DNA of 20,139 nucleotides from positions 118 to 20,256 of the forward strand of contig MGQK01000071.1 in assembly GCA_001797815.1 (NCBI GenBank). The letters are read 5' to 3'. The translations under genes were made by a program, and so were the position numbers. Under the pieces are notes generated by a model, which was not told where the DNA came from, made no database searches, and saw only the letters and a program-made list of their open reading frames with translations. Within the stretch, counting starts at the first letter, position 1, and every line of letters starts with the position of its first letter. Shown here piece by piece: positions 1,480-19,461 of this stretch. Origin of the DNA: Deltaproteobacteria bacterium RBG_13_61_14. GTDB lineage: Bacteria; RBG-13-61-14.

Positions 1480-1809
1480 TCAAGGGGCCGGCCGGAGGTC
1501 GCTGGCGTGGCGCCGGCCCCGGGAATCGTAAAACACGATGCGCTGAAACCGGGCCAGGACTTGCTCGTCCAGCGTGCAGTAGAAGGCAATGGTCTCGCCG
1601 GGCGGGAGGGTCTGGAGCCCGGGCGGGTAGAGGTAGTCGAGGCGGAGGCTTTCGGCCTCGCTTTCCAGGTCGCAGCCGCTCTTGACCTGAAGGGTCTCCG
1701 GGCCGGTATTGGTCACGTGGATCTCGAGGTTCTGCTCGCGGAGGTTGCAGCACTTGAAGTCCAGCACCTCTTCAATGGTTGAATTCATGATCACCCGGAT
1801 TTGCAGCAT
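1480..1809 (-). CDS. Hypothetical small beta-rich protein
   Basis: A 109-residue protein I do not recognise. The middle (LEIHVTNTGPETLQV, then LPPGETIAFYCTL, then FQRIVFYDSRGRR) alternates beta-strand-like segments and turns as in Ig-like or CARDB-like domains. There is no signal peptide or membrane segment, so it is probably cytoplasmic. Three cysteines fall in C-C and single positions with no clear metal motif. Start 1809 has GAGG seven bases upstream; an internal ATG eight codons later (MNSTIEEV) is the alternative. It lies nine bases downstream of the CC-GAGGC protein gene and is probably cotranscribed with it. Real because of the spacing, the ribosome site and normal composition; function unknown. 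Confidence 0.65.
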   Translation of the reverse strand: MLQIRVIMNSTIEEVLDFKCCNLREQNLEIHVTNTGPETLQVKSGCDLESEAESLRLDYLYPPGLQTLPPGETIAFYCTLDEQVLARFQRIVFYDSRGRRHASDLRPAP

Positions 1810-1818
1810 GGCCCGGCC

Positions 1819-2151
1819 TCACCAGAAGTTGACCTGGTGGACGCTTTCCAGCTTTTTCAGGATCGCTTCAATCTCCCGCCGCACCGTCTCGTCTGCCACT
1901 GGCTCCACTTCCGAAATCGGCTCACCAGCCGGGGCCTTTCCCGACATCCATTTTCCCAGGAATCCCGGCACCACCGCATAGCCGCATCCGCCCGCGCCGC
2001 AGCAGGCGGTGTCAAAAGCGGCATGGCCGATCAAGCACAACACCTCCCGGCCCGAGAACGGCAGCCGCAACTCCTTGACCAGGACGTAACGTCCGGCAAG
2101 GGCTTCCACTTCCTGGCCCAAGGGCTGGTGGATATATTCTTTGCGTGGCAT
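1819..2151 (-). CDS. Hypothetical protein with TACCGAGGCGYA cysteine motif
   Basis: A 110-residue protein of no recognised function. Its most striking part is a glycine/cysteine block at residues 48-59 with C50, C51 and C56, preceded by another cysteine, C39. Such a block could bind a metal or cluster or form a redox site, but this is inference. The C-terminal third is an acidic amphipathic helix (DETVRREIEAILKKLESV). No signal peptide is visible. No good Shine-Dalgarno site precedes ATG 2151. The upstream neighbour is the thiolase terminator, only 26 bases away, so expression depends on read-through or on a promoter I cannot identify. The hypothetical gene at 1480-1809 follows immediately. 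Confidence 0.65.
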   Translation of the reverse strand: MPRKEYIHQPLGQEVEALAGRYVLVKELRLPFSGREVLCLIGHAAFDTACCGAGGCGYAVVPGFLGKWMSGKAPAGEPISEVEPVADETVRREIEAILKKLESVHQVNFW

Positions 2152-2289: not shown

Positions 2290-3498
2290 TTATGCGCCAT
2301 ACTTGCCGATGATGGCGATAGAGCACACGTTCATGAACGGGAACCCGCCGAGGTTGTGGGTGAGCCCGAACTTGGGGTCTTTGAGCTGGCGTTTGCCGGC
2401 CCGGCCCAGAAGCTGTAAATACATCTCGTAGAGCATGCGGATGCCCGAGGCGCCGATGGGATGGCCGAAGCACTTCAAGCCGCCGTCCACCTGGCAGGGC
2501 AGGCCGCCCTCCCGGTCGTAAAAGCCGTCCATCACGTCCTTGATCGCCCCTCCGCGCGGCGAGATGTGCAGGTCTTCCATGGTCACCAGCTCGGTGATGG
2601 AAAAGCAATCGTGCACCTCCATCATGCTCACTTCCTCGCGGGGCTCCCGGATCCCGGCCTCCTTATAGGCCCGGCCGCTGCAGATGTCGGTGGTGACGAA
2701 ATGGTCGCCCTGCCATTCGTTGTATTGGGCCTCGTAACCATTGGAGAGCGCGAGCTGGAGCGCCTTGACCGAGATGATGTCTTTCTTCCCCAGGTCCTTG
2801 GCGATTTGCGGGGTGGTGACGATGGCGCAGGCGGAGCCGTCGGAAACCCCGCAGCAATCGAAGAGGCCGAGCGGATCGGCGATGATCGGCGAAGCCATGA
2901 TTTGCTCGATGGAGATTTCCTTGCGCAGGTGGGCCTTGGGGTTCAAGGCGCCGTTCTTGTGGCTCTTCCAGGAGACATGGGCCAAAGCTTTTTTCAGGTC
3001 GTCGCGGTTGATCTTATACTTGGCCCGGTAGGCGGAGGCCAACTGGGCAAAGCTTCCGGGCGCGGTGATGTTGGGCATCTGCAAGAAGCGGGAGGGGCCG
3101 GCATTGGAGCCCATGTTGGGCAGCCCGCCGTAGCCGGTGTCCTTTAACTTCTCCACGCCCAGCGCCAGCGCGATATCCACCGCGCCCGAGGCCACGGCAT
3201 AGCAGGCCCCCCGGAAGGCTTCGGTGCCGGTGGCGCAGAAATTTTCCACCCGGGTCACCGGAATGTTGGGCAGCCGCAGCGCCATGGGCAGGGGCAGGGC
3301 GGAAAGGCCCACGTTGACGAAGATCATGGCCGAACCCAGCCAGGCCGCCTCGATCTTGTCTTTCTCGATCCCGGCATCCTCCAGGCACTCCAAAAAGGCC
3401 TCCACCATCAACTCTTCGGCGCCCATGTCCCAGCGCTCGCCGAAGCGGGAGCAGCCCATGCCCAGAATTGCCACTTTGTCTCGAATTCCCGTCGCCAT
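2290..3498 (-). CDS. Thiolase family protein (SCP2-type acyl-CoA C-acyltransferase)
   Basis: A 402-residue thiolase-fold enzyme that would form or cleave beta-ketoacyl-CoA using coenzyme A. Hallmarks are VENFCATGTEA with the nucleophile C88, the HDCFSITE block that replaces the NEAF block of classical thiolases (typical of the SCP2/BbsB-like branch), GHPIGASG with the catalytic His, and a final GG-containing loop. The frame is open to 3561, but ATG 3498 is the real start: AGGAGG lies nine bases upstream and the protein then opens with the family-typical MATGIRDKVAILGMG. It follows the HMG-CoA-synthase-like/DUF35 gene by 73 bases and ends before a strong terminator, so the two should be one transcript. 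In archaea and in anaerobic toluene degraders such thiolases form complexes with DUF35 zinc proteins. The substrate is not readable. Confidence 0.9.
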   Translation of the reverse strand: MATGIRDKVAILGMGCSRFGERWDMGAEELMVEAFLECLEDAGIEKDKIEAAWLGSAMIFVNVGLSALPLPMALRLPNIPVTRVENFCATGTEAFRGACYAVASGAVDIALALGVEKLKDTGYGGLPNMGSNAGPSRFLQMPNITAPGSFAQLASAYRAKYKINRDDLKKALAHVSWKSHKNGALNPKAHLRKEISIEQIMASPIIADPLGLFDCCGVSDGSACAIVTTPQIAKDLGKKDIISVKALQLALSNGYEAQYNEWQGDHFVTTDICSGRAYKEAGIREPREEVSMMEVHDCFSITELVTMEDLHISPRGGAIKDVMDGFYDREGGLPCQVDGGLKCFGHPIGASGIRMLYEMYLQLLGRAGKRQLKDPKFGLTHNLGGFPFMNVCSIAIIGKYGA

Positions 3499-3571: not shown

Positions 3572-5020
3572 TTAAGCCTGCGGCACCGCCTTCCAAAAAT
3601 AGCCGGTGAACCCGCGCTCGCGGTCGAAATACTTTTTCCGGAAAGTGATCTTGACCGGCACCCCGACCTCCACCGCCTTGGCGTCGCAATCGGTGAAGTC
3701 CATCATCATCCGGCCGCCTTTCTCAAACTCCACCATGCCGTAGAAGGCGGGCGGGTCCACCGAGACCGCGAGCATGTCCGCGGTGTAAGTGAGGATCTTG
3801 GCCGGCTGGTCCGCGAATTCGTAATCTTCCTGGCTGTCCACCGCCCCGCACCCGGGCTTGACGCAGATCCGCTGGCTGGGGATCTGGGGAGTCCCGCACT
3901 TTTGGCAGCGGCCGCCGACAAAACCCAGGATCAGCTTGCGGTCGCGAAACAAAGTCGAAAGGGCGGTCTGGTTGGAGACCTCGGCCCGGATGCCCATCTC
4001 GGTCTCGATCAGCTCGTTGAACTTTAAGAGCTTGGTATAGGTCTTCTCCGGCTTGCGCCGGGCCAGGCTCCCGGAAACCCCGGACCGCTTGGGCAGATCC
4101 TTGATCCGGTCGGTCACCTGGAACAGGAGCGCGTCCGAGCCTTGGCCGAACCCGGCCACGATGATCTTGTCGCCGGGCTTGGCCTGCTCCAGCTCCCGCA
4201 CCAAGAGGATCAGCGGGTGCGCGGTCCCGCACTCCCCGGCTTCCGCGTGCATGTTGCCGGCCACTTGCTGGGGAGCAGCGCCCAGCGCCTTGGCGATTTC
4301 GCCGTGGGCGCGGCCGAGGAAACAGGGGTAGCAGAGCTTGGCCACGTCCTTGATATTCGTTCCGGTCTTTTTCAGCAGTCCGCTGATGGCCTGCGGGTAG
4401 ATCTTCATGTAGCCCTCGTCCCGGATCCAGCGCTCCTCCCAGTTGTAGTCATACTTCTCGTGGCTGCCCCGGTAGTGGGGCACGAAATCCAGGGTGACCG
4501 CATGCGAGCCCAGGAGCTCGGCGATCACGTTCTCCTTGCCCAGCAGCAGCGAGGCCGCCCCGTCTCCGAACCACATCTCATAAAACCATGAGGACTTGGT
4601 CAGCCGGTGGTCCGAAGCCGTGACCAGGACCTGTTTCTTGTCCCCGGCCCGAACCGTATCCAGAGCCGCAACCAGGGCCGTGGTCCCGGCCTTTTGGGTC
4701 GAGGTGAAATCGGCCGAACTCAGCTCCTCTTTCAGGTTCAGGGTGGCCGCGAGCATCCCCGCATTGGACCGGTCCGCAAACGGCAGGCTGGTCGAGGCCA
4801 GGAACACCGCGTCAATTTTCGATTTGTCCATCCCGACCAGGCAGTCGCGGCTCGCCGCCACCGCAATGGTCAGGGCGTCCTCATCCCAGTAGCACAGGCT
4901 GCGCTCGCCCTGGGCCGCGGTGATCAGGCCCGGAGCCAGCCAGCCCATGCTCTGCATGATCCCCATCCGCTCCAGCCGCAACCGGGGCAGATAGGCGCCA
5001 AAAGAAACAATGCCAGCCAT
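3572..5020 (-). CDS. HMG-CoA-synthase-like protein fused to a DUF35 zinc-ribbon/OB domain
   Basis: A 482-residue fusion. Residues 1 to about 330 have the HMG-CoA synthase/KAS III thiolase fold (opening MAGIVSFGAYLPRLRL, then WFGDGAASLLLG). Residues about 345-482 are a DUF35 module: a zinc ribbon C372-x2-C375-x10-C386-x4-C391, then an OB-like domain. In archaea, thiolase, HMG-CoA synthase and DUF35 are separate subunits of one complex; here two are fused and the thiolase is next door. The active site is odd. Aligned by eye to archaeal enzymes, the Cys before KAGT is Gln (Q109), the Glu of the GSESHPYA-like block is Thr (T77), and the His position in C230-Y-P-C-F is not His. True HMG-CoA synthesis is therefore doubtful. 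ATG 5020 has a good GGAGGAG ribosome site. The C-terminal DUF35 would give CoA-channel or docking functions. Confidence 0.88.
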   Translation of the reverse strand: MAGIVSFGAYLPRLRLERMGIMQSMGWLAPGLITAAQGERSLCYWDEDALTIAVAASRDCLVGMDKSKIDAVFLASTSLPFADRSNAGMLAATLNLKEELSSADFTSTQKAGTTALVAALDTVRAGDKKQVLVTASDHRLTKSSWFYEMWFGDGAASLLLGKENVIAELLGSHAVTLDFVPHYRGSHEKYDYNWEERWIRDEGYMKIYPQAISGLLKKTGTNIKDVAKLCYPCFLGRAHGEIAKALGAAPQQVAGNMHAEAGECGTAHPLILLVRELEQAKPGDKIIVAGFGQGSDALLFQVTDRIKDLPKRSGVSGSLARRKPEKTYTKLLKFNELIETEMGIRAEVSNQTALSTLFRDRKLILGFVGGRCQKCGTPQIPSQRICVKPGCGAVDSQEDYEFADQPAKILTYTADMLAVSVDPPAFYGMVEFEKGGRMMMDFTDCDAKAVEVGVPVKITFRKKYFDRERGFTGYFWKAVPQA

Positions 5021-5590: not shown

Positions 5591-8173
5591 ATGGATAAGT
5601 TCGATCAATTGCTGCCGCACCTGCAAAGCCCGATCCGCTACCTGGGCCGCGAGCTGAATGCCGTGCGCAAGGATCCGGCCGCGGCCAAGGTCACTTTCGC
5701 CCTGGCCTTCCCCGACGTCTATGAAGTCGGCATCAGCCACCTCGGCGTCCGCATTCTCTACCACGTGCTCAACGCGCAGGAAGGCGTGGCCTGCGATCGG
5801 GCCTACGCTCCCTGGACCGACCTCGCCGCCAAGCTCAAGGAGCAGGGAATCCCGCTCGCCTCGCACGAGTGGCGCCGGCCGCTCCGGGAGTTCGACATCC
5901 TCGGCTTCTCCCTTGCCCACGAGCTTTGCTATTCCAACGTGCTCGCCATCCTCGACCTGGCCGGAATCCCGCTTTTAAGCCAAGACCGGCAAGAAGGCCG
6001 CTGGCCCCTGGTCCTGGGCGGCGGGCCCTGCGCCAGCAACCCGGAACCCCTGGCCGAATTCTTTGACGCTTTCCTCTTCGGCGAAGGCGAAGACGCGGTC
6101 CTGGAAATCACCGCGGCGGTCAGGGCCTGGAAAAAAGCCGGCGCGGACCGCGGCGAGCTTTTGGCCCGGCTGGCCGACATCAAAGGCGTCTATGTCCCGG
6201 AATATTTCGAGCCGGACTATCGGGAAGACGGGACTATTGCTCGAGTCCGGCCGCGGCGGGCCGGCTATGAAAAAGTCGAGCGCCGGATCGTGGCGGACCT
6301 GGCCGCGGCGCCGTTCCCGACCAGGCCCCTGGTGCCCTTCGCCGAAGCGATCCACGACCGGGTGGTGGTGGAGATCGCGCGGGGCTGCACCCGGGGCTGC
6401 CGCTTCTGCCACGCGGGCATCATCTACCGGCCCTACCGCGAGCGGCCGGCCGAGCAGGTGCTGGAACTCTTGCGCCAGGGCCTGCGGGCCACCGGCTACG
6501 AGGAATGCTCGCTGCTCAGCCTTTCCGCCGGCGATTATTCCGGGATCGAGCCCCTGCTCTCCCGGATCATCCGGGAGCACCTGGACCAGCGGGTGGCGGT
6601 CTCGCTGCCCAGCCTGCACGTGCAGTCGCTTAAGACCCCCCTGATGCGGGCGATCCTCAAGGTGCGCAAGACCGGCTTCACCCTGGCGCCCGAGGCCGCG
6701 ACCGAGCGGCTGCGGCGGGTGATCAACAAGCCCTTTGCCGACGCCGAGCTTCTGGAAACGGTGGAGCAGGTGTTTGCCCACGGCTGGAAGACGATCAAGC
6801 TTTACTTCATGGTGGGCCTGCCCACGGAGACCGATGAAGACGTCGAGGCCATTGCCGACCTGGTCCAGCGGATGGATCAGCTCGGCCGCGGCTACGGCCA
6901 TCCCCAGATCAACCTGAGCATTTCCGCCTTTGTGCCCAAGCCCCACACCCCCTTCCAGTGGGAGCCGCAGGTGGAGACCGAGCGGCTTCTGCAGATCCAG
7001 GCCGAGTTCCGCCGCCGCTTCCGCCGGGGCCGCATCCGCCTGAAATGGCAGGACCCCCGGCTCTCCAACTTGGAAGGCATCTTCAGCCGGGGCGACCGCC
7101 GGCTCGCCCGCTTATTGCTCCAGGCGCGCGAGCGGGGCTTTAGCTTCGAAGGCTGGAGCGAAAAATTCAACCCCCCGGGCTGGGAGCAGGCGCTCGCCGC
7201 CGCGCAAGTGGACCCGGACTTTTACACCACCCGGCCCCGGGCCGAGGATGAAGTGTTTGCCTGGGACCACTTGGACGCGGGGGTCTCGCGCCAGTTTTTG
7301 GTGCGCGAGCGCCGGCGGGCGTTGGAGGAGGCCTTCACCGAGGATTGCCGGATCAGCGGCTGCCAAGAATCGTGCGCGGTGTGCGACCTGGAAGTGATCC
7401 AGCCGCGGCTGAGCCCGCCCCTCCCGTTTCCGCCGGAGAGCGGGCCGGCCGAGCGGCTGCCGGCCCAGCCGGACATCCGCTTCCGCTACCGGCTGCGGTA
7501 TTCCCGCCGCGGCGACGCGCGCTTCCTGGGACAGCTGGAGATCAATCGCTTGTTCGTGCGGGCGGTGCGGCGGGCCGGCCTGCCCATGCGCTACAGCCAG
7601 GGATTTCATCCGCTGCCCCGGCTGATCTTCGGTCCGGCGCCGCCGGTGGGGGTGGCGAGCGAAGCCGAATACCTGGAGCTGGAGCTGAACCAGCGCCTGC
7701 CCGCGGAAGAGGTGGGCCGGCGCATGCAGGCGGTCCTGCCGGAAGGGATGCCGGTCCAAGAGGCGCAGGAAATTCCCTTGCAGTCGCCCGCCATTTCCTC
7801 TATGATTAACTTGTTTGAATACCGGATCGAGGCCCCCCAGGGACAGGGCGCGGAGTGGTTCCCGCGGGAAGCCTTGCTGGCCTTCGCCGAACGTGATAAG
7901 TTGCCTATATTACAAAAGCGAGAGAAGGGCGAGCGAACCGTAGACCTGAAAGACCGGGTCAAGGGCATGGAAATCACCCCGGAGGGCGCGCTCCGGCTCC
8001 TGTTGCGGGCGGGCGCGGGTCCGGGGGTGAAGCCGGGCGAGGTGGTTCAGCACGTGTTCGGCCGGAGCGAAGACGAGGTGAAGGACTTGACGATCACGCG
8101 CCGGCGCGCGGAATTCAAGGAGAGCCGGGCGGTGCGCTTTCCCGGCCAGGCGGTCCGGATGCGGAAGCGGTAA
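5591..8173 (+). CDS. Radical SAM protein with B12-binding-like N-terminus and C-terminal DUF2344 domain
   Basis: An 860-residue fusion of the TIGR03960 (radical SAM) and TIGR03936/DUF2344 families, whose reaction is unknown. The N-terminal 200 residues (FPDVYEVGISHLGVRILYHVLN) resemble the cobalamin-binding-type domain of such enzymes. GCTRGCRFC gives the Fe-S motif C266-x3-C270-x2-C273. A second cluster, C586-x4-C591-x3-C595-x2-C598, sits just before the C-terminal domain and may bind iron-sulfur or zinc. DUF2344 starts near residue 629 (RFRYRLRYSRRGDARFLG). The frame is open 59 codons further upstream, but ATG 5591 matches where family members begin, and the extension would cover the folded leader. 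No strong Shine-Dalgarno is visible. RNase G starts 15 bases after the stop; this pairing recurs in many bacteria and suggests a role linked to RNA or ribosomes. Confidence 0.9.
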   Translation: MDKFDQLLPHLQSPIRYLGRELNAVRKDPAAAKVTFALAFPDVYEVGISHLGVRILYHVLNAQEGVACDRAYAPWTDLAAKLKEQGIPLASHEWRRPLREFDILGFSLAHELCYSNVLAILDLAGIPLLSQDRQEGRWPLVLGGGPCASNPEPLAEFFDAFLFGEGEDAVLEITAAVRAWKKAGADRGELLARLADIKGVYVPEYFEPDYREDGTIARVRPRRAGYEKVERRIVADLAAAPFPTRPLVPFAEAIHDRVVVEIARGCTRGCRFCHAGIIYRPYRERPAEQVLELLRQGLRATGYEECSLLSLSAGDYSGIEPLLSRIIREHLDQRVAVSLPSLHVQSLKTPLMRAILKVRKTGFTLAPEAATERLRRVINKPFADAELLETVEQVFAHGWKTIKLYFMVGLPTETDEDVEAIADLVQRMDQLGRGYGHPQINLSISAFVPKPHTPFQWEPQVETERLLQIQAEFRRRFRRGRIRLKWQDPRLSNLEGIFSRGDRRLARLLLQARERGFSFEGWSEKFNPPGWEQALAAAQVDPDFYTTRPRAEDEVFAWDHLDAGVSRQFLVRERRRALEEAFTEDCRISGCQESCAVCDLEVIQPRLSPPLPFPPESGPAERLPAQPDIRFRYRLRYSRRGDARFLGQLEINRLFVRAVRRAGLPMRYSQGFHPLPRLIFGPAPPVGVASEAEYLELELNQRLPAEEVGRRMQAVLPEGMPVQEAQEIPLQSPAISSMINLFEYRIEAPQGQGAEWFPREALLAFAERDKLPILQKREKGERTVDLKDRVKGMEITPEGALRLLLRAGAGPGVKPGEVVQHVFGRSEDEVKDLTITRRRAEFKESRAVRFPGQAVRMRKR

Positions 8174-8188
8174 TCGGGTCAGGCGGGA

Positions 8189-9712
8189 ATGCAGAGTATT
8201 CTCTTGATTAATGTCACGTCTCAGGAGACGCGGGTGGCGCTGGTGGAGAACGGAGTGCTGGCCGAACTCTACCTCGAGCGCAACCGCGACCGGGGCATGG
8301 TCGGCAACATCTACAAGGGCAAGGTGGTCCGGGTCCTGCCCGGCATGCAGGCGTCCTTTGTGGACGTGGGCCTGGAGCGGGCCAGCTTCCTTTACGTCAC
8401 CGACGTGCTCGCCAATCCCCGGGAATTGATGCCGTTCAGCGAGGAGTCGGAGGACGTCGAGATCGAGCGGGCGGACCAGCGGGAGCGCTCCCGCTACTTT
8501 GCGGGAGACGTGAGCATCCAGGACCTGCTCCGGGAGGGGCAGGAGGTGGTGGTGCAAGTGGCCAAGGAGCCGGTGGGCACCAAGGGCGCCCAGGTGACCA
8601 CCCACCTCTCGCTCCCGGGCCGCTACCTGGTATACATGCCGACCATGCACCGGATCGGGATCAGCCGGCGGATCGAGAACGAGAAGAAACGGGCGGCGCT
8701 GCGCAAGATGGTGGAGAAGACGCGGCCGGAAGGCGCGGGCGGTTTCATCGTGCGCACGGTCAGCGAGGACCAGCCGGAAAAGGACATCTCGGCCGACATG
8801 CAATACCTGCTCAAGCTCTGGGCCGACATCCAGGAGCGGACCCGGCGCGCCTCCACCCCCAGCATCGTGCACCAGGACCTCTCCCTCGACCTCAAGGTGA
8901 TCCGCGACATCTACACCGACGAGGTGGAGAAGCTGATCGTGGACTCGCCCGAGCAATACCAGGAGATCATGCGCTTCATGAACACCTTCCTCTCCAGCCG
9001 GCGCCAGACGGTGGAGTTGTGGGAGAAAGAGGAAAGTCTGTTCGAACATTACGGGATCGAGTACGAGATCAACCGGGCGCTCGACCGCAAGGTCTGGCTC
9101 AAGTCGGGCGGGTACCTGGTGATTGACCAGACCGAGGCGCTGACCACGGTGGACGTCAACACCGGCCGCTACGTGGGCAAGCGCCATTTTGAGGACACCA
9201 TCCTCAAGACCAACCTGGAAGCGGTCAAGGAGGTGGTGTATCAGCTCCGGCTGCGCAACATCGGGGGGATCATCATCATTGACTTCATTGACATGGCCAA
9301 CACGCAGAACCGGGACCGGGTCTTCCAGACGCTGGAGGCGGCGCTCCGGCGGGACAAGACCAAGTCCACCATCCTCAAGATTTCCGAGCTGGGCCTGGTG
9401 GAGATGACCCGCAAGCGGACGCGGGAGAGCCTCTCCCAGATCCTGTGCGAGCCCTGCCCCTACTGCGAGGCGCGGGGCTTTGTGAAATCGCGGGAGACCG
9501 TGTGCTACGAGATTTTCCGGGAGATCCGCAAGATGGCCCATCAATACCGGGGCCAGGGGGTGAACCTGTTCGTGCACCCGGAGATTGCGGACCTCTTGTT
9601 GGAGGAAGAGCGGGCCGGGGTGGAAGGGCTGGAGCGGAGCCTGGACCTCAAGCTCCAGGTCACCGCCAACAACAACTTCCACCAGGAGCAATACGAGATT
9701 TCCGTGATCTAG
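8189..9712 (+). CDS. rng: Ribonuclease G/E family endoribonuclease
   Basis: A 507-residue single-strand endoribonuclease of the RNase E/G family, which acts in rRNA maturation and mRNA decay in the cytoplasm. It opens with the RNase H-like segment and S1 domain (NIYKGKVVRVLPGMQASFVDVG, about residues 37-58). The catalytic DNase I-like part has TVDVNTG with D322 and IIDFIDM with D365 and D368, the Mg-binding acids of the family. The zinc link is CEPCPYC (C420, C423, C426). The length fits RNase G or a short RNase E with no long degradosome scaffold tail. An insert near residues 88-110 is acidic and Arg-rich. It is the middle gene of an apparent operon: 15 bases after the radical SAM gene and 18 before the MshEN gene. 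The ribosome site before ATG 8189 is weak (GGCGGGA). Confidence 0.95.
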   Translation: MQSILLINVTSQETRVALVENGVLAELYLERNRDRGMVGNIYKGKVVRVLPGMQASFVDVGLERASFLYVTDVLANPRELMPFSEESEDVEIERADQRERSRYFAGDVSIQDLLREGQEVVVQVAKEPVGTKGAQVTTHLSLPGRYLVYMPTMHRIGISRRIENEKKRAALRKMVEKTRPEGAGGFIVRTVSEDQPEKDISADMQYLLKLWADIQERTRRASTPSIVHQDLSLDLKVIRDIYTDEVEKLIVDSPEQYQEIMRFMNTFLSSRRQTVELWEKEESLFEHYGIEYEINRALDRKVWLKSGGYLVIDQTEALTTVDVNTGRYVGKRHFEDTILKTNLEAVKEVVYQLRLRNIGGIIIIDFIDMANTQNRDRVFQTLEAALRRDKTKSTILKISELGLVEMTRKRTRESLSQILCEPCPYCEARGFVKSRETVCYEIFREIRKMAHQYRGQGVNLFVHPEIADLLLEEERAGVEGLERSLDLKLQVTANNNFHQEQYEISVI

Positions 9713-9730
9713 CTTGCAGGAGCAGCGGCC

Positions 9731-11851
9731 ATGCCCGGGAAGCAACTGAAACTCGGCGACCTCTTGGTCCAGGCCGGTCTGATTGACGAGCTCCAGCTCA
9801 AGTCAGCCCTGGGCTACCAGCGGCGGTGGGGCGGCAAGCTGGGCAAGTGCCTGGTGGACCAGGGCTTCATCGAGGAAGAGGCCATGCTTCGCTTCTTGAG
9901 CCAGCGCTTCAAGATGCGGGCGGTGGACCTGACCCGCTCCCGGATCGCGCCCCAGACCTTTGCCATAGTGCCGGAAGCCGTGGCCCGGAAATACGAGGTG
10001 GTCCCGGTGGTGGTCAAGGACACGCCGGGGAAAAAGACCCTGGTCCTGGCCATGTCCGACCCTTCCGACCTGCAGTCGGTGGATGAGATCCAGTTCCTGA
10101 CCAATTGCAAGATCGAGCCGGTGCTGGCCACCGATTCCGCCATTGCCAAAGTCTTCTCTCATTACGGAGACTATTCCCCGGAAATGATCGCCGGCCCCCA
10201 TTGGGGGGCCACGCCCGCGGAGCTGCACCGCCAGGAGGCGGAAAAGACCAAGCCGCCCAAGGCGGTCGAGCCCCAGGTGGTGGGGGAAGGCGTTTTTGAT
10301 CTGAGCGAGGAGAGTCTGGAAAGAGAAGGCGTGGGCATCAAGCCGGATGACGACATCGAGATCATCCGGGATGAGGTCACCATGATCCGCGCCGGCATCG
10401 AGGCGCCCCCGCCTCGACCTGCGGCTCCTCCTCGGCCAGCGGCGCCGCCCCGGCCCCCCGCAACTCCAACTGCGGCCCCGCGGCCCGCTGCTCCGGCGAG
10501 ACCCTCCGCTCCTCCAGCCCCGCCACCCCCGCGACCGGCCGCGCCTCCCCGGGCACCCTCGCCTCCAGCGCCCCCGCCCAGGCCGCCAGCAGCTCCGCCG
10601 GACCTGGAGCCGCCGCCTTTGGAAGAGTCTCCGTTTCTGGAGCCGGAAATGGAGATCGAACGCGGCGCGCCGGAAGTTCCGCTCGGCCCGCAGCCCGAAG
10701 TCCCGGCCGAGCGGGGTCTGGACCTGGAGTTACCGGAGGATGACGACTCGGAGATGGAACTGGTGGGCGCCCATGAATTTGTTCCGGTCCTGGACCAGGC
10801 CCAGGTCTCCCGGGTCGGGGTGGGCGTGGAGCACGCCCGGACGGAACTGGACCGATCCCTGTTCGAGCGGGAAGCTTTCCAGGCCGACGCCGGCGTGGTG
10901 CGATCCCCGGCCGATGAATCCGTAATCGAGATCCCGCCGCTGAAATCAGCGCCCCCGGCCGAAGACGAATTTTTCCGTCCGCCGACGGCCCAGCCGGCGC
11001 CGGCCCCCCCTCCGCCCGCGCGACCAGCGCCAACCCCTCCCGCAGTTCCTCCGGCAAAACCCCCGGCCCCGCCGGCCGCCGCCCCTCTCCCCATCCGCCC
11101 GACACCGCCCCCAGCCGTCCCCACCGTCCCTCCGCCGATCCAGGCGCCAGAGCCAGCCGCGGTTCAGGCCGCTCCTCCTTCGCCCCCCGCAAGAACGCCT
11201 CCTGCTCTGGAGCCCCCAGAGCTCTCTCCCCCGTCCCTGGATCTGGCCGAGGCGACCGAAGAGGATAGTTTTCCGCCGCCGGTCCTGGAGCCGCATGCTC
11301 CCCCGGTCCCGGAATTCGATTTGCCGCCAGCCTCGATGGATTATGAATTCTCGCCGGAAAGCCGGCTCCCCTTCGAAGAGCCTCCGCCCAAACCGACGTT
11401 TGAGGGAGACTTGGCCGACCGGCCCGACACTCCGGATTTTTCCGCCCTGGCCGAAAAGGAGCTTCCCCCGCCGGAACTGAGCGAGGAAGAGATGTTTTTC
11501 AACGTGGCGCGGGAGCGGGAAGAGTCGCCGGAGGCGGAGATCGCCGCCGGGGAGATGGAGCGGATTCCCGCGGCGCCGGAAGACTCGGAAAAGATGGCGG
11601 AGGCCAGGCGGCGGCTTTCCGAGTTGGAAGAGCTGGGCGAAGACTTTCTCGATGCCAAGGCGGTCAAGACGCGCTTGAAGTTGATTGAAGACCTGAAGTC
11701 GGAAGTCGGTGAGCGCGAGTTCCAGTTTGACGAGCTGTTGAACTTGATGATGAAGAAGGAGATGGGAGAACTGACCTCGGAGCTGTTCATGAAAGAACTC
11801 AAGCTGCTCAAGCGCCGGGCCGAAGAGTCGCGCAAGAAGAAGCCGCGTTGA
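9731..11851 (+). CDS. GspE-N (MshEN) domain protein with Pro/Ala-rich linkers
   Basis: A 706-residue protein without an ATPase domain. Residues 7-59 hold two 24-residue motifs five residues apart (K7-LGDLL to Q30; K36-LGKCL to R59), the layout of MshEN c-di-GMP-binding domains, followed by a GspE-N-like fold to about 150. The family consensus opens each motif with Arg-Leu-Gly; both copies here have Lys, and one consensus Leu is Met (M52), so binding may be weakened. Two low-complexity linkers rich in Pro and Ala span about 223-295 and 415-501, separated by an acidic part. The C-terminus (about 619-706) is a charged helical or coiled-coil segment. ATG 9731 follows GCAGGAG. Probably a cytoplasmic adaptor connecting a c-di-GMP sensor head to a partner through the helix; partner unknown. 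Confidence 0.82.
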   Translation: MPGKQLKLGDLLVQAGLIDELQLKSALGYQRRWGGKLGKCLVDQGFIEEEAMLRFLSQRFKMRAVDLTRSRIAPQTFAIVPEAVARKYEVVPVVVKDTPGKKTLVLAMSDPSDLQSVDEIQFLTNCKIEPVLATDSAIAKVFSHYGDYSPEMIAGPHWGATPAELHRQEAEKTKPPKAVEPQVVGEGVFDLSEESLEREGVGIKPDDDIEIIRDEVTMIRAGIEAPPPRPAAPPRPAAPPRPPATPTAAPRPAAPARPSAPPAPPPPRPAAPPRAPSPPAPPPRPPAAPPDLEPPPLEESPFLEPEMEIERGAPEVPLGPQPEVPAERGLDLELPEDDDSEMELVGAHEFVPVLDQAQVSRVGVGVEHARTELDRSLFEREAFQADAGVVRSPADESVIEIPPLKSAPPAEDEFFRPPTAQPAPAPPPPARPAPTPPAVPPAKPPAPPAAAPLPIRPTPPPAVPTVPPPIQAPEPAAVQAAPPSPPARTPPALEPPELSPPSLDLAEATEEDSFPPPVLEPHAPPVPEFDLPPASMDYEFSPESRLPFEEPPPKPTFEGDLADRPDTPDFSALAEKELPPPELSEEEMFFNVAREREESPEAEIAAGEMERIPAAPEDSEKMAEARRRLSELEELGEDFLDAKAVKTRLKLIEDLKSEVGEREFQFDELLNLMMKKEMGELTSELFMKELKLLKRRAEESRKKKPR

Positions 11852-11916
11852 TCTCTCGAAAAGTCACCGGGCGTGGACAGTTGCTCCCCCACCCTCACTG
11901 TCATCCCGTCAAACTC

Positions 11917-11945
11917 TTGACCGCGATCAGGCGCTGGACTTAAAT
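11917..11945 (+). promoter_or_regulatory. Sigma-70-like promoter for the DUF4380-YraN unit
   Basis: TTGACC (11917-11922) and TTAAAT (11940-11945) are separated by exactly 17 bases, each one or two mismatches from consensus, 29 bases before ATG 11974. It lies in the 122-base gap after the MshEN gene. It marks the likely start of a new transcript, and shows that the upstream in-frame ATG at 11944 lies within the -10 box and cannot be the normal start. Confidence 0.65.
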
Positions 11946-11973
11946 GCGGCGCAAGCAAGGAGGATCAGGACCA

Positions 11974-17709: not shown

Positions 17710-19461
17710 ATGAAAATTCGCGTCGCCAAAACCGCGGGCTTTTGCATGGGCGTGCGCCGGGCCGTCAACCTGGTCCTGGAAGAAGCGCGCGCGCGCGAAG
17801 GCGAGCTTTACACCCTGGGCCCCTTGATCCACAACGACCAGGTGGTCCAGTGGCTGGAGCGCCGGGGCATCCGCGCGGTGCGCGAGCCCGAGCCCGGGAC
17901 TGGAGCCCGCCTGGCGATCCGCTCGCACGGGATCGGCCCGCAGGAGCGCCATCGCCTGCGCGAACAGGGCTTTGAGCTCTGCGACGCCACCTGCCCCCGG
18001 GTGGGCCGCGTCCACGGTGTGGTCAAGAAGCACCATGCCCGGGGTTACTTCATCGTGGTGGTGGGCGACCCGGGCCATGCCGAGGTGGAAGGCATTCTCG
18101 GCTTTGCCGAGGGCCGCGCCGCGGTCATCTCCAGCCCGGACCAGGCGGCGGCGCTGCCGGAGGCGGGCCGGGTCTGCGTGGTGGCTCAGACCACCCAGAG
18201 CCCGGAAAAGTTCGCCGAGGTGATCGCCGCGGTGCGCCGGCGCTACCCCGAGCTGGGAGCGCGGGAATTGGTGGTCGAGGATACGATCTGCGACTCGACT
18301 CACCGCCGACAGCGCGAGGTGAAAGAACTGACCCGGGAAGTGGAAGCGGTGGTGGTGGTGGGGGGCAAAAACAGCGCCAACACCAAGCGACTGGCCGAGG
18401 TCGCCGAAGCCCAGGGCATTCCCGCCTTTCGGGTGGAGACCGAGGCGGACCTGGAATGGGACCGGCTCCGGGATTTCAAGCGGGTGGCGGTTACCGCCGG
18501 GGCCAGCACCCCCCAGTGGCTGATCCGGCGGGTCTATGAGGAGCTCGCGCGCCGCGACCGCGAGCGCAAGCCCTGGCCGCTGCGCTTCCTCTATACCTTC
18601 CCCCGCTTTCTGGTCCTGTCCAACCTCTTCGTCGCGCTCGGCGCCGCCTCCCTGTGCGCGGCCGCGACGCGCCTCCAGGGCCTGGCCCTGCAACCCCTCG
18701 AACTCCTGGTCAGTTTCTGCTACGTCTTCTCGGTGCACACCTTCAACGTGCTCATCAACCGCGAGGCCATCGCCCTCAACGAGCCGGCCCGCTCCCGCGC
18801 CTTTGAGCACAGCCGCGAACTCTGGATCTTCTTCTCCCTGCTCAGCCTGCTCCTGGCCTGGGTCCTGGCCGCAATCCTGGGCTGGAAAGCTTTCCTCATC
18901 TTCACCGGCGCCGGCATTCCCGGCATCCTCTACCAGGTCCGCATCCTCCGGCGCTCCCGCGCTCCCCGGCTCCCGTTCCGCGCCCTGGCCGACATCCCCG
19001 GCTCCAAGGATATCTTCATGGCCCTGGGCTGGACCGCGGTGACCGCCATCCTGCCTCTGGCCAGCCAGGGCTTCCACCTGGCCTCGCCCGCCACCGCGGT
19101 CGCGGCCCTCCTGGTCCTCGGCCTGGTCCTGCTCCGGAGCGCGCTCCAGGACTTCCGCCACCTCCAGGGCGACCGTCTGGTCGGCCACGAGACCTTACCC
19201 ATCGCCCTGGGCGAGCGCCGCGCCCGGTGGCTGCTCTTCTCCCTCGCCCTGGCCCTGCTCCTGGGCTTAAGTCTCAGCGCCGGCCTCGGGCTGGTGCCGC
19301 CGCTGGGCTTCGGCCTGCTCCTGGCCGTGGCTTACCTGGGCGCTCTCATCCCCCTCTTTTCCCGCCGCACCACCTTCCAGGGCCTGCGCGCCGAGTTCCT
19401 GGTGGACTTCACCTTCATCCTCGCCGGACTGATCACCTGGGCATGGAAACTGGTGTCCTGA
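17710..19461 (+). CDS. ispH: IspH (HMBPP reductase) fused to a UbiA-like membrane domain
   Basis: A 583-residue single-frame fusion. Residues 1 to about 285 are IspH, the Fe-S enzyme turning (E)-4-hydroxy-3-methylbut-2-enyl diphosphate into IPP and DMAPP, the last MEP-pathway step. All three cluster cysteines are present: C12 (GFCMGVRRAV), C95 (DATCPRV) and C194 (DTICDST), with GHAEVEG, AQTTQS and NSANTKRL motifs. The domain ends with the typical AGASTPQWLI. From about residue 300 a polytopic UbiA-like prenyltransferase domain follows, with roughly eight hydrophobic segments. Its second acidic motif is D481-FRHLQG-D488 (then HETLPIALG). The first motif N346-VLIN-R-E has lost the aspartates of NDxxDxxxD. 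Fusion could feed isoprenoid diphosphates to the membrane; reduced prenyl transfer is possible. No Shine-Dalgarno; starts at the family-typical MKIRVAKTAGFCMGV. Confidence 0.92.
   Translation: MKIRVAKTAGFCMGVRRAVNLVLEEARAREGELYTLGPLIHNDQVVQWLERRGIRAVREPEPGTGARLAIRSHGIGPQERHRLREQGFELCDATCPRVGRVHGVVKKHHARGYFIVVVGDPGHAEVEGILGFAEGRAAVISSPDQAAALPEAGRVCVVAQTTQSPEKFAEVIAAVRRRYPELGARELVVEDTICDSTHRRQREVKELTREVEAVVVVGGKNSANTKRLAEVAEAQGIPAFRVETEADLEWDRLRDFKRVAVTAGASTPQWLIRRVYEELARRDRERKPWPLRFLYTFPRFLVLSNLFVALGAASLCAAATRLQGLALQPLELLVSFCYVFSVHTFNVLINREAIALNEPARSRAFEHSRELWIFFSLLSLLLAWVLAAILGWKAFLIFTGAGIPGILYQVRILRRSRAPRLPFRALADIPGSKDIFMALGWTAVTAILPLASQGFHLASPATAVAALLVLGLVLLRSALQDFRHLQGDRLVGHETLPIALGERRARWLLFSLALALLLGLSLSAGLGLVPPLGFGLLLAVAYLGALIPLFSRRTTFQGLRAEFLVDFTFILAGLITWAWKLVS

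Follow-up and report, generated by a model that had tools for sequence, protein, structure and literature searches.

Among the closest described systems is PhlACB, the monoacetylphloroglucinol acyltransferase (PDB 5m3k/5mg5), in which PhlA has lost Cys and Glu and the DUF35 protein PhlB ties the PhlA and PhlC dimers together (PMC6392133). Only residues of PhlC take part in acyl transfer, and the enzyme functions only when all three proteins are present (PMC6392133). DUF35 domains also serve as scaffolds in steroid breakdown, where they staple thiolase-fold enzymes to their partners (PMC12329534, PMC10398937).

The window analyzed here is the whole stretch of 20,139 nucleotides taken from contig MGQK01000071.1 of Deltaproteobacteria bacterium RBG_13_61_14. 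Its minus strand carries a gene, with its ATG at position 5020 and its stop at 3572, whose product joins an HMG-CoA-synthase-like domain to a DUF35 domain (Table 1). The initial annotation had called such a fusion over the same interval, and its coordinates are right, with the strand now fixed as minus. Neither a description of this fused family nor an experiment on any of its members was found in the openly licensed literature. We consider the fusion protein most likely to be a structural helper of a thiolase that degrades fatty acids or related compounds.

Table 1. Positions in the window of the fusion gene, its domains and former active-site codons, and the neighboring genes
Feature	Positions	Strand	Basis
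Pseudo-HMG-CoA-synthase/DUF35 fusion gene, 482 aa	3572..5020	(-)	ORF; Pfam ACP_syn_III_C and OB_ChsH2_C; AF2 model
HMG-CoA-synthase-like domain, ~residues 1-320	4061..5020	(-)	VIA-align to 6esq_I; NF003274 below cut-off
DUF35 domain (predicted zinc ribbon and OB fold), ~residues 366-480	3581..3925	(-)	OB_ChsH2_C; 6esq_E, E 1.7e-10
Codon of Thr77, at the place of the catalytic Glu	4790..4792	(-)	T 88, L 4, V 1 in 93 relatives
Codon of Gln109, at the place of the nucleophilic Cys	4694..4696	(-)	Q 51, L 30, others 12; Cys in 0/93
Codon of Pro232, at the place of the catalytic His	4325..4327	(-)	P 85, Y 4, S 2, Q 1, T 1 in 93 relatives
Codon of Glu263, at the place of the GNTYSG Asn	4232..4234	(-)	E 63, D 25, N 4, L 1 in 93 relatives
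SCP2-type thiolase, 402 aa (Cys88, H296-D-C-F, G345-H-P)	2290..3498	(-)	NF004810/PRK06157; next gene downstream of the fusion
110-aa protein with motif DTxCCGxGGC, possible operon member	1819..2151	(-)	No Pfam/NCBIfam match
109-aa protein, possible operon member	1480..1809	(-)	No family match

Pfam recognizes in the fusion protein the C-terminal domain of KAS III/HMG-CoA-synthase-like enzymes (ACP_syn_III_C) and the DUF35 OB fold (OB_ChsH2_C, over its cut-off), while zf-ChsH2 is reported in relatives and not in the window protein. Two archaeal-type NCBIfam HMG-CoA synthase equivalogs match the first 340 residues, NF003274 at 188.5 bits against a cut-off of 244 and TIGR00748 at 124.7 bits against a cut-off of 353. 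The AF2 model (pLDDT 91.4, pTM 0.93) predicts an HMG-CoA synthase fold whose best solved match is the archaeal HMG-CoA synthase 6esq_I (VIA-align Z 47.8, rmsd 1.6 Å over 334 residues, 27 % identity). PhlA of PhlACB comes next, with Z about 45-46, and plain HMG-CoA synthases and FabH score clearly lower against the model than either of these. The DUF35 part reads as a Cys4 zinc ribbon followed by an OB fold, and its zinc site is intact, with Cys372, Cys375, Cys386 and Cys391 kept in 91-93 of 93 fused relatives.

The active-site columns were read from an alignment of the fusion protein with 6esq_I that is gap-free through the three blocks. Where the archaeal enzyme has VGSES the fusion protein has LASTS, placing Thr77 at the catalytic Glu; FACKAGT faces STQKAGT, placing Gln109 at the nucleophilic Cys; and VFHQPNGKF faces CYPCFLGRA, so that the catalytic His corresponds to Pro232 and not to Tyr231. 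The initial annotation had suspected these losses from Thr77 within ASTSLPFA, from Gln109 before KAGTTAL and from a C230-Y-P-C-F stretch without the expected His, and had asked for an alignment with HMG-CoA synthases; its residue numbers are correct, and in that alignment the loss stands, with no conserved Glu, Cys or His nearby. His239 was considered as a substitute catalytic His and rejected, since it lies seven residues beyond the His column, where the following helix of the AF2 model begins, and is conserved in only 61 of the 93 fused relatives. Six relatives (L032, L064, L065, L067, L072 and L073) have a Cys at the neighboring position 108, which the window protein does not.

Whether the loss is common to the family, as the initial annotation had also asked, was addressed with relatives from a genome scan. 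Using a 12-row alignment, the scan returned at least 497 relatives or loci, the best 80 of which were kept, and these together with members found in other genomes make up a scored set of 93 fused proteins. As the best 80 of at least 497 loci are the closest relatives, many of them related Desulfobacterota, the percentages obtained are not natural frequencies. Whole-phylum surveys covered 1-3 genomes each, the relatives belonging to small phyla, and three genomes represent the window's phylum at the 85 % completeness threshold. No protein among the 93 keeps the catalytic Glu, Cys or His (positions 77, 109 and 232). At position 109 the residues other than Gln and Leu are Thr (4), Val (2), Ile (2) and Met, Asn, Ser and Arg (1 each), and the column ranks 288 of 482 by entropy. 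A fused member that keeps the Cys was not seen among the 93 scored, in which distant members are thinly sampled. As a control, four stand-alone HMG-CoA synthases (L012-L015), found by the same search and included in the same alignment, keep E, C, H and N. The loss of Glu, Cys and His in these aligned sequences is a family trait and not chance.

In the tree, the fused proteins form one clade (SH-aLRT 93) and the intact HMG-CoA synthases a separate group (SH-aLRT 99), with PhlA and the Streptococcus homologue 9vbo, the latter on a very long branch, on the side of the dead proteins. Members come from Desulfobacterota, Myxococcota, Nitrospirota, Chloroflexota, Pseudomonadota, Planctomycetota and Spirochaetota, and from the archaeon Methanolliviera. 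Mean column identity of the HMG-CoA-synthase-like domain is 61 % over 40 sequences, so the gene is not a pseudogene in decay.

Two catalytic readings of the protein were rejected on the column counts of the 93 relatives. The first holds that the protein still works as an HMG-CoA synthase, its catalytic residues having moved elsewhere, an idea that the overall fold and the 27 % identity to 6esq_I could suggest. It is hardly credible, given a gap-free active-site alignment with no conserved Glu, Cys or His nearby, a loss that extends across the family, scores below both equivalog cut-offs and a genome without detectable HMG-CoA reductase. The second, raised in the initial annotation as an analogy to KSQ domains, would make Gln109 the mark of a KS-Q-like decarboxylase that produces a carbanion for the thiolase. 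Gln is indeed the commonest residue at position 109 (51/93), but Leu replaces it in 30 relatives and seven other residues do so in 12. Decarboxylating condensing enzymes would be expected to need His/Asn or His/His, and here the His and Asn positions hold Pro and Glu/Asp. With Gln109 freely exchanged and His and Asn gone, the analogy is not supported and a decarboxylase is extremely improbable.

A role in the mevalonate pathway was likewise rejected. HMG-CoA reductase was not detectable in the window genome by a search that was positive in five of 14 control genomes, and ispH is present within the window, so a mevalonate role lacks support and is not required. As an observation in its own right, IspH (LytB) and a UbiA-type prenyltransferase share a single 583-aa frame (window 17710-19461, +), an uncommon-looking fusion of isoprenoid genes. 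Elsewhere in the window (9731-11851, +), downstream of an RNase E/G gene, lies a protein of 706 aa that has an MshEN domain and, in its middle, a long stretch rich in proline and alanine.

The conservation of the altered pocket has to be weighed against a purely structural role. Thr77 (88/93), Pro232 (85/93), Glu or Asp at 263 (88/93) and His268 (83/93) are well kept, and mean entropy puts the whole domain level with DUF35 (1.46 and 1.43 bits, respectively, over the 93 fused relatives). Thr77, Pro232 and Glu/Asp263 being rather conserved, the former pocket could still hold a ligand or have a function of some kind, and it might have been re-purposed, with new residues such as Thr77, Glu263 and His268 giving the domain its own catalysis or ligand binding. 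We regard this as rather unlikely, as position 109 holds no conserved nucleophile, His268 or Pro232 is missing in deep members (L007-L011 and L002), and PhlA is a known dead relative.

Immediately downstream of the fusion gene lies an SCP2-type thiolase, which scores 681 bits against the NF004810/PRK06157 cut-off of 403. Its catalytic motifs are intact: the Cys, HDCF and GHP motifs are kept in all aligned partner thiolases that cover them, with the exception of a truncated, gap-broken copy (L002). The two genes are tightly linked, with a thiolase on the same strand in 70 of 80 loci and directly downstream of the fusion in nearly all copies with enough sequence; only one copy (L087) is without it, and in another (L028) the fusion is followed by a run of N. 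In L022 the fusion and thiolase genes share one frame, so a read-through single chain could be folded, with the TAG stop read as Gly and an alignment of five paired and 36 unpaired rows. The resulting AF2 model (pTM 0.62, mean pLDDT 81) is too low in confidence to place the two proteins relative to each other. Fusion/thiolase pairs also occur twice in tandem, at L102 5037-10735 (G026:C75) and at L054 1400-7977, and the two pairs of L102 represent separate subfamilies, with 62 % and 36 % identity to the window protein.

The gene neighborhoods of relatives point toward beta-oxidation. An MFE-2-type 3-hydroxyacyl-CoA dehydrogenase (SDR) domain extends the fusion protein in 33 of 80 loci, mostly together with a C-terminal SCP2 domain, to give a chain of ~910 aa. 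In L047, from the cultured Desulfosarcina alkanivorans, where the fusion occupies 8001-10727 and the thiolase 10746-11954, Pfam recognizes adh_short and SCP2. Of the 80 loci, 35 have a gene for an MFE-2-like protein (hydratase 2, SDR, SCP2) directly upstream. Other common neighbors are acyl-CoA dehydrogenases, an AMP-binding ligase, class III CoA-transferases and a TetR regulator, and three loci (L065, L067 and L072) have the order fusion, thiolase, FAS1_DH, MaoC, SDR. At least one beta-oxidation-type gene lies on the same strand in 56 of 80 loci. The window locus resembles the other 24, and its operon has no beta-oxidation gene besides the thiolase, which counts against the proposed metabolic role. 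A second fusion in the window genome, 31-33 % identical, carries Val in place of the Cys; a thiolase gene comes after it, and FAS1_DH/MaoC genes and an acyl-CoA dehydrogenase lie to its sides. The many SCP2-type thiolases and many stand-alone DUF35 proteins of this genome suggest a broad acyl-CoA catabolism. Two small proteins may belong to the window operon (Table 1): relatives of the 110-aa protein, with the motif conserved, lie beside the fusion and thiolase in at least eight other loci (L022, L023, L041, L066, L077, L093, L102 and L103), and relatives of the 109-aa protein lie downstream of the thiolase in L025, L041, L050, L051 and L056.

These neighborhoods also bear on whether a real complex might make or break a different C-C bond, in acetoacetyl-CoA formation, an aromatic or steroid side-chain step, or a C-acylation like that of PhlACB. 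Friedel-Crafts acylases are among the nearest solved relatives, NCBIfam names the model matched by the window thiolase an acetyl-CoA acetyltransferase, and the window copy and 24 of the 80 loci are without a linked same-strand beta-oxidation gene. However, the operons of close relatives hold acyl-CoA dehydrogenases, MFE-2-like proteins, CoA ligases and SDR/SCP2 fusions, and we judge a purpose outside beta-oxidation to be quite unlikely.

We therefore favor, as the probable explanation, that the dead HMG-CoA synthase fold and DUF35 together form a noncatalytic scaffold subunit of the downstream SCP2-type beta-oxidation thiolase. A noncatalytic partner of the thiolase had already been proposed in the initial annotation, and that idea is the best reading because the whole family shares the loss, because nearly every locus links the fusion to an intact thiolase, and because PhlA provides a precedent (PMC6392133); the beta-oxidation context and the SDR/SCP2 fusions had been missed. 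By analogy to the archaeal thiolase/HMG-CoA synthase/DUF35 complex and to PhlACB, DUF35 would staple a pseudo-synthase dimer onto a thiolase dimer, with the fusion chain supplying both the pseudo-synthase and the staple. The fusion protein may complete or shape the CoA and acyl pocket of the thiolase. Claisen chemistry would be left to the thiolase alone, most likely as the thiolysis of 3-ketoacyl-CoA during beta-oxidation. In many Desulfobacterota, where the preceding enzyme, an MFE-2-like 3-hydroxyacyl-CoA dehydrogenase, and SCP2 are fused to the same chain, the fusion probably brings the dehydrogenase to the thiolase. We speculate further, and only tentatively, that the fused module could act as a hub that hands 3-ketoacyl-CoA from the MFE-2-type dehydrogenase, which outside those Desulfobacterota can be a separate protein, to the SCP2-type thiolase. 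In this picture the CoA site would be inherited from the archaeal thiolase/HMG-CoA synthase complex and the direction of transfer turned around, towards the thiolase.

On similarity alone, a gene present in hundreds of genomes would be called HMG-CoA synthase, yet its product cannot carry out that reaction by the mechanism known for the enzyme. If it is taken instead as a putative thiolase subunit, pathway predictions are corrected, in that no mevalonate pathway is implied. The loss of the HMG-CoA synthase active site, already known from PhlA, is thereby shown to be ancestral in a broad family of fused proteins. The same reading suggests, as something open to test, that anaerobes have a beta-oxidation assembly combining a dead condensing enzyme with a dehydrogenase, a zinc/OB domain and a thiolase.

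Among known systems, the archaeal thiolase/HMG-CoA synthase/DUF35 complex (6esq) shares the same three kinds of domain and provides the closest fold for the HMG-CoA-synthase-like part. The archaeal synthase keeps Glu, Cys and His and makes HMG-CoA, whereas the fused family has lost all three residues, and the two subunits that are separate in the archaeal complex are fused in the window protein. Benzoylsuccinyl-CoA thiolase BbsAB (PDB 7pxp), an enzyme of anaerobic degradation, similarly combines an SCP2-like thiolase with a DUF35-type zinc/OB subunit; to our knowledge it is a two-subunit system without an HMG-CoA-synthase-like part, and the window thiolase reaches 146 bits on the BbsB model against a cut-off of 750. 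The operons of relatives resemble the MFE-2 and SCPx thiolase system of peroxisomal beta-oxidation in bringing together an MFE-2-type hydratase/SDR, an SCP2 domain and an SCP2-type thiolase, although we know of no dead HMG-CoA synthase/DUF35 part in the peroxisomal system. Like PhlACB, the fused family combines an HMG-CoA-synthase-like subunit without Cys and Glu (PhlA has G, C and Q at the three positions) with a DUF35 carrying a putative Cys4 zinc ribbon and a thiolase-type catalytic partner. In contrast to the three separate genes of PhlACB, the first two parts form one chain, its HMG-CoA-synthase-like part falls in the family's own clade and not with PhlA, and its partner is a different, SCP2-type thiolase (PRK06157). 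Whereas PhlACB C-acylates a phenol without CoA, the operons of the fused family point to beta-oxidation.
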